Part shown: positions 3,111-60,931 of the stretch, one piece after another
How the letters are laid out: each line of letters begins with the position of its first letter
Position numbering within the stretch: position 1 is the stretch's first letter
From: Ottowia flava
GTDB lineage: Bacteria; Pseudomonadota; Gammaproteobacteria; Burkholderiales; Burkholderiaceae_C
NCBI RefSeq assembly: GCF_008017535.1
Contig: NZ_VRUA01000009.1
Location: 91,846 to 155,845, forward strand
Direction of reading: 5' to 3'
DNA length: 64,000 bases
Position numbers and translations under genes: made by a program
The notes under the pieces: generated by a model
The model's input: only the letters and a program-made list of their open reading frames with translations
What the model was told of the DNA's origin: nothing
Databases searched by the model: none

Positions 3111-3182
3111 CTTCAAATTTACAAGAAATCGACCTATCGCCCTACAACCACCTGCGCAACCAGCTACTCAAACAATAGCAAA
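3111..3182 (-). repeat. Comamonadaceae-type palindromic repeat, copy 1 (intergenic)
   Basis: On the minus strand it contains the core TAGCTGGTTGCGCAGG followed by a GTTGTAGGGC segment and a tail ending near CTTGTAAATTTGAAG. It fills almost the entire gap between the yjgR stop and the upp start. Confidence 0.75.
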
Positions 3183-3185
3183 CAA

Positions 3186-3818
3186 ATGCCCGCCCAAGTC
3201 CACCACATCACCCACCCGCTGGTGCAGCACAAGCTCACGCTGATGCGCAACAAGGAAGCCAGCAGCACCACCTTCCGCACGCTGCTGGGCGAGCTGGCCA
3301 TGCTGATGGCCTATGAAGTGACGCGCGACACGCCCACACAGCTGGTCGAGATCGAGACGCCGCTTGAAAAAATGATGAGCCCCATGATTGACGGCAAGAA
3401 GCTGGTGTTTGCCAGCATCCTGCGCGCCGGCAACGGCATGCTGGACGGCCTGCTGCGCGTGGTGCCCAGCGCGCGCATCGGCCACGTCGGCCTGTACCGC
3501 GACCCGCAGACGCTGCAGGCGGTCGAGTACTTCTACAAGATGCCGGGCGACCTGACCGAGCGCGATGTGATCGCCGTGGACCCGATGCTGGCCACTGGCC
3601 ATTCGGCCGTTGCTGCGCTGACGCGGCTGAAGGCGGACAAGCCGCGCTCGCTCAAGTTTTTGTGCCTGCTGGCCGCGCCCGAAGGGCTGAAGACGCTGAC
3701 GGCCGCCCACCCCGATGTGCCGATCTACACCGCCGCGATCGACCGCGAGCTGAACGACCACGGTTACATCCTGCCCGGCCTGGGCGACGCGGGCGACCGG
3801 ATCTTCGGAACGAAGTAA
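3186..3818 (+). CDS. upp: Uracil phosphoribosyltransferase
   Basis: The enzyme salvages uracil to UMP using PRPP in the cytoplasm. The 210-residue product has the family's usual length, the PRPP-binding segment VDPMLATGHSA, and the C-terminal PGLGDAGDRIFGT that closes most Upp proteins. The ATG at 3186 gives the canonical N-terminus (MPAQVHHITHPLVQHKL); a longer in-frame extension would run into yjgR. There is no visible Shine-Dalgarno because a repeat element ends four bases before the start, which is odd for a housekeeping gene. Confidence 0.95.
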   Translation: MPAQVHHITHPLVQHKLTLMRNKEASSTTFRTLLGELAMLMAYEVTRDTPTQLVEIETPLEKMMSPMIDGKKLVFASILRAGNGMLDGLLRVVPSARIGHVGLYRDPQTLQAVEYFYKMPGDLTERDVIAVDPMLATGHSAVAALTRLKADKPRSLKFLCLLAAPEGLKTLTAAHPDVPIYTAAIDRELNDHGYILPGLGDAGDRIFGTK

Positions 3819-3956
3819 AGGCGCTGCCCGCGCTCCAAGGCGCGGCAGCACCTGTTCGAACACCGCACGACGTGCGGCACGCTGCGCCGCTGTTCCACTG
3901 CTGCGGCGCTTTCATGGACCCTCACGCGGGCAAGCCCACGCCATTCACCCATCGAC

Positions 3957-58519: not shown

Positions 58520-58569
58520 TAGCGCCACGGCATGACGCTCGGGCGTCATCGCGGCAGGAGGCGAAATGC

Positions 58570-59328
58570 TCAGGCGGAAGCCTGGCCTTCCTCGACCTCG
58601 ACGAACTCGTCGTCGCCCTCGGCCTGCACGGCCTTGACAACGTCATTCACGGCATTGGCCTTGCCTTCGAGCACAGCGTCGGCCATGCCGCGGGCGTACA
58701 GCGTCACGGCCTTGGCCGAGTCGTCGTTGCCCGGAATCACGTAGTCGATGCCGTCAGGGTTGTGGTTGGAGTCCACAACGCCGATCAGCGGGATGCCCAG
58801 CTTCTGCGCTTCGGACACGGCGATCTTGTGGAAGCCCACGTCGATCACGAAAATGGCGTCCGGCAGGGCATTCATGTCCTGAATGCCACCGATGTCGCGC
58901 TCGAGCTTCTCCATCTCGCGCGAGAACATGAGCTGCTCTTTCTTGCTCATGCTGTCCAGACCAGCTTCCTGCTGGGCCTTCATGTCCTTCAGACGCTTGA
59001 TCGACGTCTTGACGGTCTTGAAGTTGGTCAGCATGCCGCCGAGCCAGCGCTGCTCGACGTACGGCATGCCGCAGCGGCGCGCTTCTTCGGCGACGATTTC
59101 GCGGGCCTGACGCTTGGTGCCTACAAACAGGATCGTGCCGCGCTTGGCCGCCAGTTGCTTGGCGAACTTCTGCGCTTCCTGGAACATCGGAAGCGACTTT
59201 TCCAGGTTGATGATGTGAATCTTGTTGCGATGGCCGAAAATGAACGGGGCCATCTTGGGGTTCCAGAAGCGCGTCTGGTGACCGAAGTGGACACCGGCTT
59301 CCAGCATTTCACGCATGGTGACGGACAT
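58570..59328 (-). CDS. rpsB: 30S ribosomal protein S2
   Basis: The 252-residue S2 protein begins MSVTMREMLEAGVHFGHQTR and has PRAIFVIDV-like LPDAIFVIDVGFHKIAVSEA, with the acidic C-terminal tail usual in betaproteobacteria. It heads the long minus-strand run rpsB-tsf-pyrH-frr and on. Confidence 0.98.
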   Translation of the reverse strand: MSVTMREMLEAGVHFGHQTRFWNPKMAPFIFGHRNKIHIINLEKSLPMFQEAQKFAKQLAAKRGTILFVGTKRQAREIVAEEARRCGMPYVEQRWLGGMLTNFKTVKTSIKRLKDMKAQQEAGLDSMSKKEQLMFSREMEKLERDIGGIQDMNALPDAIFVIDVGFHKIAVSEAQKLGIPLIGVVDSNHNPDGIDYVIPGNDDSAKAVTLYARGMADAVLEGKANAVNDVVKAVQAEGDDEFVEVEEGQASA

Positions 59329-59680
59329 GGGGATACCTTCTCAAGGTTGGGTCTGAAATCCAGCCCGCTCATTGCCCGCGTGCGCCGCATGGCGGCTTGC
59401 AGACAACACCTCGTGGGGCTGGTTTGCGATTTGTCCTGCCGGGGCGATACGCCACTGGTTACAGCAGCATCCCGTACTCGGCAAAACCTGCGGATTCTAG
59501 CACGCCCGCTCCTGTCGGATCGCCTCTCACCCGCGGCCTGCGGCATGATCGACGCCCCTGCCCGATGCATCCCGCACCGGGCGGCGACCCGAATTTCTCT
59601 ATGATCCCGGGGGCCGCCGTTACCCCCATTGGGGGACGAGCCAAGCCATCTCCGTAGTTCCCACCGAGCAGTTTCCCTCC
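59329..59680. promoter_or_regulatory. Divergent leader region between rpsB and dadA
   Basis: A 352-bp gene-free stretch. On the minus strand a TAGAAT at 59494-59499 is a possible -10 box for rpsB, leaving a leader of about 160 bases in which S2 autoregulation might act. On the plus strand TATGAT at 59600-59605 could be the -10 box of dadA. No good -35 elements were seen. The stretch 59520-59600 is GC-rich without a clear feature. Confidence 0.4.
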
Positions 59681-60931
59681 ATGAAGATCGCGATCCTTGG
59701 CGCCGGCATTGTCGGCGTCACCACGGCCTATGAGCTCGCGTGCGACGGGCACGAGGTCACCGTGATCGAGCGCCACGCCAGCGTGGCCGAAGGCTCCAGT
59801 TTTGCCAACGCTGGCGTGGTTGCGCCGGGCTACGTCGCCCCCTGGGCCGCGCCGGGCATGCCGACCAAGGTGCTGCGCCACCTGCTGGCGCGCCACGCGC
59901 CGGTGCGCGTCAGCCGCCCGCTCGCCGCAGCCGACGTGGTCTGGATGCGTCAGTGGCTGCGCGCGTGCGACCCCGCCGCCTACGCCGCCAACCGCACGCG
60001 CATGCTGCGCCTGGCGTTTTACAGCCGGCGCCGGCTGCACGAAGTGGCCAGCCGCATGGCCTACGAATTCGACCGCGGCCAAGGCTACATGGTGCTGCTG
60101 CGCGGCGAAAAAGAACGCCAGATGGCCCAGCCGGGCATGAAGCTGCTGCGCGAATTGGGCGTGGCCTTCCATGAAATCACCGGCGCCGAAGCGCGCCAGA
60201 TCGAGCCCGCGCTGAACCCCGACACCCCCCTGGCGGCCGCCATCTTCCTGCCCGAGGACGAGGTCGGCAACTGCCGCCAGTTCGCCGTGATCCTGCGCGA
60301 CGCAGCCGAGCAGCTGGGCGTCCATTTTGCATTCAATACAACCGTAGCCCGCATTGATCCTGCGCAACCAGCTACGCTTTATGTAGCAAATGACGCCACC
60401 CCTCACCACTTCGACGCTCTCGTCGTCTGCACCGGCGTGCAGTCGCCCGAGCTATTGGCCCCGCTCGGCATCCGCCTACCCATGCGGCCGGTGTACGGCT
60501 ATTCGGTCAGCGCGCACGTGCCCGAGCCCGTCCTTGCCCCGCGCAGCGGCGTGATGGACGAGCGCTACAAAGTCGCCATCTGCCGCATGGGCCAGCGCGT
60601 GCGCGTCGCCGGCTCGGCCGAGATCGGCGGCCAACCCGGCGTGAACAACCCGCGCGCGCTGGACACGCTGTACAAAGTGCTGTCCGACTGGTTCCCCTCC
60701 GCCGGTCGCCTGTCCAAAGGCGTGCAAGTCTGGAAAGGCGCGCGCCCCATGCTGCCCGACGGCCCGCCCCTCATCGGCGCCAGCGGGCGACCGGGCCTGT
60801 GGCTCAACCTCGGCCACGGCTCCAGCGGCTGGGCCCTGTCGTGCGGCAGCGCACGCCTGCTGGCAGACCAGATCGGCGGGCGTGCACCGGAAATTGACGC
60901 GGAAGGTTTTGGCGTTGAACGCCTGCGCTGA
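59681..60931 (+). CDS. dadA: D-amino-acid dehydrogenase small subunit type
   Basis: A membrane-associated FAD enzyme that oxidises D-amino acids such as D-alanine to keto acids. The 416-residue protein begins MKIAILGAGIVGVTTAYELA with the dinucleotide-binding loop, has SSFANAGVVAPGYVAPWAAPG, the typical DadA segment, and ends with GHGSSGWALSCGSARLLADQI. A repeat element overlaps codons for about residues 217-240 (RIDPAQPATLYVAND). It converges with an Asp/Glu racemase gene. Confidence 0.93.
   Translation: MKIAILGAGIVGVTTAYELACDGHEVTVIERHASVAEGSSFANAGVVAPGYVAPWAAPGMPTKVLRHLLARHAPVRVSRPLAAADVVWMRQWLRACDPAAYAANRTRMLRLAFYSRRRLHEVASRMAYEFDRGQGYMVLLRGEKERQMAQPGMKLLRELGVAFHEITGAEARQIEPALNPDTPLAAAIFLPEDEVGNCRQFAVILRDAAEQLGVHFAFNTTVARIDPAQPATLYVANDATPHHFDALVVCTGVQSPELLAPLGIRLPMRPVYGYSVSAHVPEPVLAPRSGVMDERYKVAICRMGQRVRVAGSAEIGGQPGVNNPRALDTLYKVLSDWFPSAGRLSKGVQVWKGARPMLPDGPPLIGASGRPGLWLNLGHGSSGWALSCGSARLLADQIGGRAPEIDAEGFGVERLR
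60322..60392 (-). repeat. Palindromic repeat, copy 18 (inside dadA, antisense)
   Basis: Minus-strand: TTTGCTACATAAAGCGTAGC, TGGTTGCGCAGGATCAATGC, GGGCTACGGTTGTATTGAAT. Read in dadA as GCG-CAA-CCA-GCT (Ala-Gln-Pro-Ala). Confidence 0.8.

Follow-up and report, generated by a model that had tools for sequence, protein, structure and literature searches.

A 65-bp motif repeated within and between genes of Ottowia flava: a candidate DNA uptake signal in the Comamonadaceae

Repeated sequences in bacterial genomes may lie between genes or within them, where they become part of the encoded proteins. In this work we studied a stretch of 64,000 nucleotides of Ottowia flava (assembly GCF_008017535.1, contig NZ_VRUA01000009.1, positions 91,846 to 155,845 of the forward strand), called the window hereafter, in which copies of a repeated motif are scattered over genes such as ileS, glmM, folP, carA, lpxB, lpxD and dxr and over the regions between them. 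The original prediction had described about 18 copies of a palindromic repeat, with a copy lying antisense and in one reading frame in each of seven unrelated genes. A search with the core TAGCTGSCTGCGCA, allowing up to 2 mismatches, gave 18 matches in the window against 2.4 expected. A weight matrix trained on 225 elements, all from outside the window, gave exactly 18 sites with scores of 20.9 to 79.4 bits, the next best position reaching -3.3 (Table 1). The two lists differ by one entry each way, the core match at 5744 (minus strand) being no element and the element at 47846 (plus strand) being missed by the core. The number of copies was thus confirmed, and the motif is 65 bp long, its information spanning TGCTAYNNAWTTNNATAGCTGCYTGCGCAGRTGGNTGTAGGGCYRGAGGCCNATTTNNCTTNAAA. 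The antisense reading in one frame was found for six of the seven genes (lpxB, carA, dxr, and those of the SpoU methyltransferase, the DUF4149 protein and the dadA-like oxidoreductase). The seventh copy overlaps the uncertain start of the EamA/DMT transporter gene, and its translation is not certain. Two further copies lie within genes of the window, folP and ileS, both in sense orientation.

Table 1. Copies of the motif in the window, with their scores (bits) under the held-out weight matrix
Position	Strand	Location	Score	Remarks
3116..3180	-	intergenic	71.9	
5649..5713	+	intergenic	79.4	top score of the window
9766..9830	+	17 bp upstream of ileS	61.5	
12498..12562	+	in ileS, sense, adjoining the zinc-finger segment	20.9	weak, lowest of the 18; absent from the profile matches at E<1e-3
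14080..14144	+	intergenic, converging genes on either side	69.9	
17647..17711	-	intergenic	50.1	
18594..18658	+	overlaps the uncertain start of the EamA/DMT transporter gene (17715-18629 or 17715-18668, minus strand)	43.9	
27945..28009	-	overlaps glmM start	43.6	orthologous copy in sister genome G011
28417..28481	-	in folP, sense	37.9	length kept in 17/17 rows
32411..32475	+	overlaps start of gene 32471-33193	44.1	orthologous copy in G011
35125..35189	-	intergenic, converging genes on either side	66.2	
36303..36367	+	in DUF4149 gene, antisense	42.0	13/19 orthologue rows gap-free
42178..42242	+	in carA C-terminal tail, antisense	31.3	tail longer than in ten lackers
44097..44161	+	in SpoU methyltransferase gene, antisense	52.5	same length in 20/20 rows
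45480..45544	+	in lpxB, antisense	56.9	same length in 20/20 rows
47846..47910	+	overlaps 3' end of lpxD	53.3	orthologous copy in G011
54111..54175	+	in dxr, antisense	47.4	same length in 21/21 rows and in 16/16 genomes of other families
60324..60388	-	in dadA-like FAD oxidoreductase gene, antisense	41.4	sole orthologue found (G017) scores -20.5, coding a similar peptide with different codons

The copy number was estimated on a sample of 864 kb of the 4.12-Mb genome (21%), made up of the window and 40 alternate 20-kb stretches chosen independently of the copies. A first model, built from the sequences of 17 window copies only, found at least 150 copies in the genome, every one with E < 3e-9, and the iterated profile gave 242 elements in the sample at E<1e-3. 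This profile was partly built from sequences that it later scored, and synonymous shuffling, the held-out matrix and cross-validation served as controls. Two-fold cross-validation on the 864 kb yielded 261 sites of at least 10 bits, against 0 in the reversed sequence. The density of one copy per 3.3 to 3.6 kb in the sample extrapolates to approximately 1,200 copies per genome.

In intergenic copies the motif carries approximately 52 bits, spread across all 65 bp. Palindromy is limited to parts of the consensus (GCTAY..RTAGC and CCTGCGCAGG), so that the description as palindromic stands for these parts only, and their arms do not covary: Watson-Crick pairs at columns 11/19 of the outer palindrome number 90 against 111 expected. 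Covariation is found mainly between adjacent columns, the strongest distant pair (36/42) reaching 0.146 bits against a shuffle average of 0.085. A structured RNA element acting in mRNAs as a terminator, processing or stability signal would account for the enrichment of the motif between converging genes (63 of 178 copies not internal to genes). Such an RNA structure was rejected for the absence of covariation, and we hold it highly improbable, as copies in genes occur in both orientations, the window has no Rfam match and the alignment of its copies folds to 2 pairs. Adjacent columns (42/43 and 58/59) change together, from TT to AA and from TA to GC, and the palindrome arms at columns 11/19 are anti-correlated, CA/TG being preferred over TA/CG, as if the shape of the DNA, and not pairing, were read.

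The 242 elements comprise 121 intergenic copies, 61 overlapping a gene end and 60 lying fully in genes (37 antisense, 23 sense), the genes having been called by a codon-usage gene caller written for this analysis, with uncertain start codons. The coding share of the sample being 82%, copies within genes are below chance. Those that are present use the frames unequally, with 29 in antisense frame 2, 14 in sense frame 2 and 17 in the remaining four frames together. Thus 29 of the 37 antisense copies lie in the frame noted in the window, and 25 of these 29 encode A[QR]xA, which bears out the claim of one frame and one peptide in unrelated proteins. Counted over the 121 intergenic copies, 80 are open in sense frame 2, 72 in antisense frame 2, 58 in antisense frame 0 and 10 to 18 in each of the other frames; frame use deviates from openness alone with a chi-square of 38.4. 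The frame bias is therefore due in part to stop codons in the other frames, and what remains of it probably to residue tolerance. Of the two genome-wide signs that were to back the original prediction, an excess of copies in genes was not found, and a strong frame bias was, though it stems only partly from stop-free frames. The common Ala-Gln-x-Ala peptide is a by-product: few frames of the motif are open, and the commonest choice among them in genes, on the antisense strand, gives Ala-Gln-x-Ala. Repeated peptides in unrelated proteins can thus be imprints of DNA signals, which deserves a warning.

For comparison of the host proteins, two syntenic stretches were fetched from 20 genomes each (row counts include the window's own row). 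Genomes or orthologues without a match to the model, which is tuned to this genus, are called lackers and the others bearers. Protein length around the motif is equal in bearers and lackers in all rows of dxr, lpxB, SpoU and folP (Table 1), folP of G003 being frameshifted just past the motif site. The DUF4149 rows that are not gap-free have 1- or 2-codon gaps, with a longer insert in G012. No 65-bp indel was seen in the rows of these five genes, and no internal indel of roughly 22 residues in any orthologue set examined; the syntenic set holds one orthologue of dadA and none of ileS. The length at the dxr site is also identical in all genomes examined from other families, and the two best-matching solved Dxr chains align without gaps through it, as the original prediction had proposed to check on structures; the SpoU loop in other families is not alignable and gives no length information. 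Insertion is thus absent in four of the six host genes having several orthologues. The idea that residues were replaced without change of length holds for dxr, lpxB, SpoU and folP and for most DUF4149 rows, and fails for carA, the C-terminus being shorter in ten lackers. The unchanged length in most hosts tested supports the accompanying proposal of conversion or selection instead of plain insertion.

These lengths bear directly on the explanation by a protein-coding mobile element, of the Rickettsia palindromic element (RPE) kind or of the kind of miniature inverted-repeat transposable elements (MITE) or repetitive extragenic palindromes (REP), that would insert in frame. A repeat family read in one frame in unrelated genes, a partly palindromic consensus and the longer carA tail in bearers would all be expected of it. 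We find it barely credible: no insertion is seen in dxr, lpxB, SpoU and folP, and the equal length of dxr in other families refutes it there. The equal lengths rule out insertion in these four host genes, carA being excepted. Near-identical copies, which a MITE or REP would leave, are also absent, the most similar of 29,161 pairs being 83% identical (77% at best in column-shuffled controls), as are paired hairpin arms, those of the consensus showing no covariation. Like RPE, the motif is read in one frame in unrelated proteins (here with 60 of 242 copies in genes). However, RPE are about 150 bp long and integrated as translational fusions, as the available excerpt of the report has it (PMC10969869), whereas no residues are added in four of six hosts here. 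The kinship with RPE that had been suggested was not borne out, as there is no indel of about 22 residues, the information lies in synonymous sites, the same codons are shared across genera, and comparable protein segments occur where the DNA motif is absent.

That the motif is kept at the level of DNA is seen in the codons. The GC content at third codon positions is 0.46 in elements within genes (n=1247) against 0.87 in their flanks (n=3277; 57 of the 60 elements used). Third positions match the consensus like those of intergenic copies (0.781 vs 0.792), and first and second positions match slightly below expectation (0.778 of 0.807 and 0.750 of 0.792, respectively). When synonymous codons were re-dealt from their pool over the 771 called genes, leaving the proteins unchanged, 0 matches were left against 63 in the real sequence. 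In orthologues, the frequency of the same codon at identical residues of the motif segment is 0.670 between bearers, 0.395 between bearers and lackers and 0.408 between lackers, the corresponding values nearby being 0.619, 0.542 and 0.492. Amino-acid identity in the motif segment is 0.598, 0.420 and 0.416 for the same classes of pairs, and 0.69-0.73 nearby. This comparison covers six genes with several orthologues and one dadA pair, leaves out gapped rows and sites scoring 0 to 15, and its pairs are not independent. The segment that holds the motif is a variable one. Identity between bearers and lackers equals that between lackers, which argues that gain of the motif does not replace the protein. 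In dxr, a bearer (G003, score 25) and a lacker (G015, score -35) have 15 of 22 residues in common, and in dadA the window genome (G000, 39.8) and G017 (-20.5) have 16 of 22.

A templated patch replacement, in which a 65-bp donor (single-stranded DNA, RNA or another copy) would overwrite short stretches by ectopic conversion or short-patch illegitimate recombination, is consistent with the conserved length, the whole 65-bp patch and the small number of intermediate scores. It would, however, install the peptide of the donor, whereas the identities just given do not fall when one partner carries the motif, and bearers of the dadA and dxr copies retain most orthologous residues. The best pair of copies being 83% identical also speaks against it, and we regard this explanation as improbable.

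The motif occupies the same codons across genera, scores above 15 being reached by 12 of the 21 dxr rows, 16 of the 20 lpxB rows and 17 of the 20 SpoU rows. A tree based on 18 proteins of 21 genomes and rooted at its midpoint has bearers in both deep clades, with the lackers G012, G024 and G053 among them. We read this as a motif that is probably ancestral and was lost several times, parallel gain in separate lineages being the alternative to this reading. Proteins of lackers often appear suited to the motif: for dxr, the site ranks 1 for synonymous encoding in five of seven lackers and 6 and 19 in the others (of 2,122 to 2,212 offsets; 700 in one). It ranks 1, 3 and 5 for SpoU and 1, 1, 2, 3 and 70 for the in-register DUF4149 orthologues, leaving out G023, G010, G254 and G022, which are one codon out of register. 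In G017 the carA site ranks 2 and the dadA site 1. Such a pre-adapted protein could be the imprint of the motif, if the motif was lost there. For the dxr site in other families, ranks run from 3 to 210 of about 2,250, with the median within the top 1%. The original prediction was to be challenged by distant orthologues coding for the same peptide at the same place; dxr of other families does have a segment of the same length at a site among the best of the protein for the motif, but not written in motif DNA, which speaks against insertion and not against the motif.

Along the genome the copies are evenly spaced. Gaps below 300 bp make up 2.5%, against 9.8 +/- 2.0% under random placement, and the coefficient of variation of the gaps is 0.83 against 0.94 +/- 0.05. 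Among the 178 non-internal copies with both neighbours known, 12 lie between diverging genes, the number between converging genes being that given above, whereas the 528 intergenic regions of at least 40 nt include 97 convergent and 107 divergent ones. The motif is thus depleted in divergent promoter regions. In the four stretches of lowest GC content, 80 kb together, there are 4 copies, the other 784 kb having 238 (p=1e-6), a grouping made after two stretches were seen to be empty, and IS66 transposases were found in two of these four stretches (ten proteins examined). A replication-strand signal of the Chi/KOPS type was rejected, as orientation is independent of GC skew (r=0.16; 23 plus and 27 minus copies at positive skew, 63 and 63 at negative skew). 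Plasmids and phages gave no match at E<=0.01 to one consensus query, a search of little weight, with no positive control and low sensitivity for 68 bases. Of the low-GC, motif-free stretches, L066 carries an IS66 transposase, an RND efflux set and a P-type ATPase, and L054 an IS66 transposase, a HerA/DUF87 protein and a ring-hydroxylating dioxygenase. The 10 kb at L045:8450-18853 have the lowest GC content of the sample and contain no called gene and no Rfam match at gathering scores.

This layout is shared by the main rival explanation, a selected binding site, according to which copies at intervals of a few kb are required by a sequence-specific chromosomal protein (a nucleoid organiser or a factor in repair or segregation) and maintained by selection. 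Even spacing, orientation without link to replication skew and avoidance of divergent promoter regions all agree with it, and it has in common with an uptake signal that copies are formed in place and kept at the DNA level, also in genes. On the other side, approximately 52 bits is, by our own arithmetic, far above what a single protein needs.

The profile search in related genomes that had been proposed gave matches at E<=1e-5 in 83 of 250 genomes and 45 of 115 genera of the family, and in 4 of 200 genomes of the order, all of the same family (own genome included in both). Within the genus 18 of 24 genomes have the motif, against 0 of 16 genomes of other families. These counts are lower bounds, the model being tuned to this genus and the filters strict. 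Titled loci around dxr numbered 80, with lengths of 4 to 21 kb, and 17 of them contain at least one copy: Comamonas granuli (NBRC 101663) has 5 in 21 kb, two Extensimonas have 2 and 3 and four of seven Polaromonas have 1 to 4, while 0 copies were seen in the dxr loci of Variovorax, Hydrogenophaga and Limnohabitans, short stretches in which a sparse motif can be missed. The closest titled dxr loci belong to unclassified metagenome-assembled genomes (Dxr identity 87% and 85%), followed by Comamonadaceae. Each of four further genomes has a consensus of its own on the same frame (140 kb; 14 to 47 copies per genome). Between the sister genome G011 and the window genome, differences are found at columns 28, 33, 39-43 and 45 (p from 1e-5 to 2e-16), G at column 45 being present in 172 of 242 copies of the latter and in 4 of 47 of the former (p=4e-16). 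The commonest core at columns 28/33 is AGCGCT in G011 (15/47) and TGCGCA in the window genome (98/242). The motif thus forms species dialects. These could also mirror co-evolution of a binding site with its DNA-binding protein, and patchy presence, independent of ComEC, fits such a site as well. However, the motif is missing from several lineages (G012, G024, G053), and single sites are missing in species of one genus that retain others, such as the dxr site in G015 and G021, so that selection per site would be weak; we consider a selected binding site somewhat unlikely.

The explanation that we favour, with a probability of about 0.5, is that this signal of 65 bp and approximately 1,200 copies, kept at the DNA level and probably formed in place, is most likely a DNA uptake signal spread by molecular drive. 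A biased uptake machine, consisting of a type IV pilus with a sequence-reading minor pilin followed by ComEC, would prefer fragments that carry the motif. Once recombined, the fragments taken up would spread those base changes that bring a site closer to the motif, wherever protein and promoters tolerate them, and copies in genes would be built in place by point mutation and recombination. The motif would serve as a 'self' tag by which the cell recognises related DNA during natural transformation, the uptake machine being, as we infer, the reader of the motif. DNA-level upkeep, even spacing, dialects, lack of insertion, and scarcity in islands and in constrained coding DNA match what has been reported for uptake sequences, which, in the available excerpts of the reports, seldom occur in new segments or in coding DNA under constraint (PMC7811141) and form dialects (PMC3630211). 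As in uptake signals, the copies are far above chance (261 in 864 kb vs 0), they appear to have arisen in place, including in genes without insertion, apart from the carA tail, they vary by species, and they are depleted in new and constrained coding DNA, as judged from the low-GC stretches, from the 60 of 242 copies in genes and from the lower protein identity of the segments that hold them.

The motif resembles the uptake signal sequence (USS) of Haemophilus and other Pasteurellaceae, with about a thousand or more copies, many of them in genes, a core plus AT-rich flanks, an orientation bias in genes (PMC2346458) and depletion in new and constrained coding DNA (PMC7811141). Yet the USS, again according to the available excerpt, has a core of 9 bp (PMC3630211) and a full length of 31 bp (PMC7811141) against 65 bp here, its sequence and family are others, and the present motif is known from sequence alone. 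With the DNA uptake sequence (DUS) of Neisseriaceae it shares species dialects of one motif, location in the core genome and the presence of a ComP-family pilin, whereas the DUS is 12 bp long (PMC3630211, as excerpted) and of another sequence, and ComP is linked to DUS in Neisseriaceae. The betaproteobacterial repeat element (BRE) is likewise a repeat of Bordetella and comamonads with some copies in genes, but it measures 75-91 bp in Bordetella, is GC-rich (69%), often tandem and present in at most 29 copies (PMC3110155, available excerpt). Compared by description, not by sequence, its properties differ, and BRE was rejected as the identity of the motif.

Several observations weigh against an uptake signal. 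Known uptake signals are short (a core of 9-12 bp, 31 bp at most), and this motif is not; shortness is usual and perhaps not necessary, so we state that the motif works like an uptake signal and not that it is a proven member of that class. Its approximately 52 bits are, by our own arithmetic, about fourfold the information that marking 1,200 sites requires. Intermediate scores are scarce (22 of the 261 cross-validated sites between 10 and 30 bits, in the window and stretches L031-L070), which is unexpected for slow accumulation, and a gradual process must invoke fast completion. Pairs of copies are more alike than shuffled columns, so there is some shared sub-structure among the copies. The carA motif lies in a C-terminal tail (window 42166-42250; L131) that is missing in ten of eighteen genomes. 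The bearers (window, G011, G019, G014 and the frameshifted G003) have 399-403 residues and the ten lackers 387-398, while carA of G017, G023 and G010 also has 403 residues, with a decayed motif (scores -12, 3 and 3). Judged from these sequences, carA appears to have gained a tail holding the motif, which does not fit simple replacement. The length comparison above kept only alignments covering the site, so that short-tailed carA was dropped and 10 rows remained, G010 and G014 each contributing two from overlapping stretches, whereas the tail comparison covers 18 genomes. Pre-adaptation is weaker in lpxB lackers (ranks 2, 2, 34 and 80) and folP lackers (1, 2, 88 and 490), and in other families the SpoU site, in a poorly aligned loop, has a median in only the top 11%. 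All 40 bearers examined and 39 of 40 lackers have ComEC, and a pilin of the ComP_DUS family occurs in 41 of 41 bearers and 38 of 39 lackers. Bearers thus possess these parts of the machinery, but the genes, nearly as common in lackers, do not separate the two groups, and competence genes were therefore rejected as the explanation of motif presence.

The comamonad Verminephrobacter eiseniae is reported to be transformed sequence-selectively, and A. temperans by DNA of its own species only, the available excerpt of the report naming no uptake sequence for either (PMC4212676). The literature searched, with subscription papers outside its scope, yielded no uptake signal for Comamonadaceae; the core strings occurred in none of its texts, and the motif was not described among the matches listed. 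It is possible, at slightly less than even odds, that the Comamonadaceae have an uptake signal of their own, unrelated to USS and DUS, several times the length of any known signal, split into dialects and rewriting codons of core genes in place across the family. Self-DNA recognition would then have arisen a third time, besides its origins in Pasteurellaceae and Neisseriaceae, and in a large family of environmental bacteria. The selective transformation reported there would gain a sequence, the dialects would predict which species can exchange genes, and the length of the motif would require the reading of DNA by pili to be reconsidered. Should the motif not be an uptake signal, a 65-bp, thousand-copy signal dictating codons of core genes lacks an explanation and would suggest a DNA-binding system, so far undescribed, that acts across the whole chromosome. 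Overall, the interpretation in the original prediction was partly supported.

Two minor observations concern the orthologues. In lpxB of G023 and G010 (and G021) a second copy, in sense orientation and without counterpart in lpxB of the window, lies at residues about 84-106 (L137/L139). The dxr gene of G220 and the carA and comEC genes of G043 are split into pieces (L146, L147), possibly by assembly frameshift errors.

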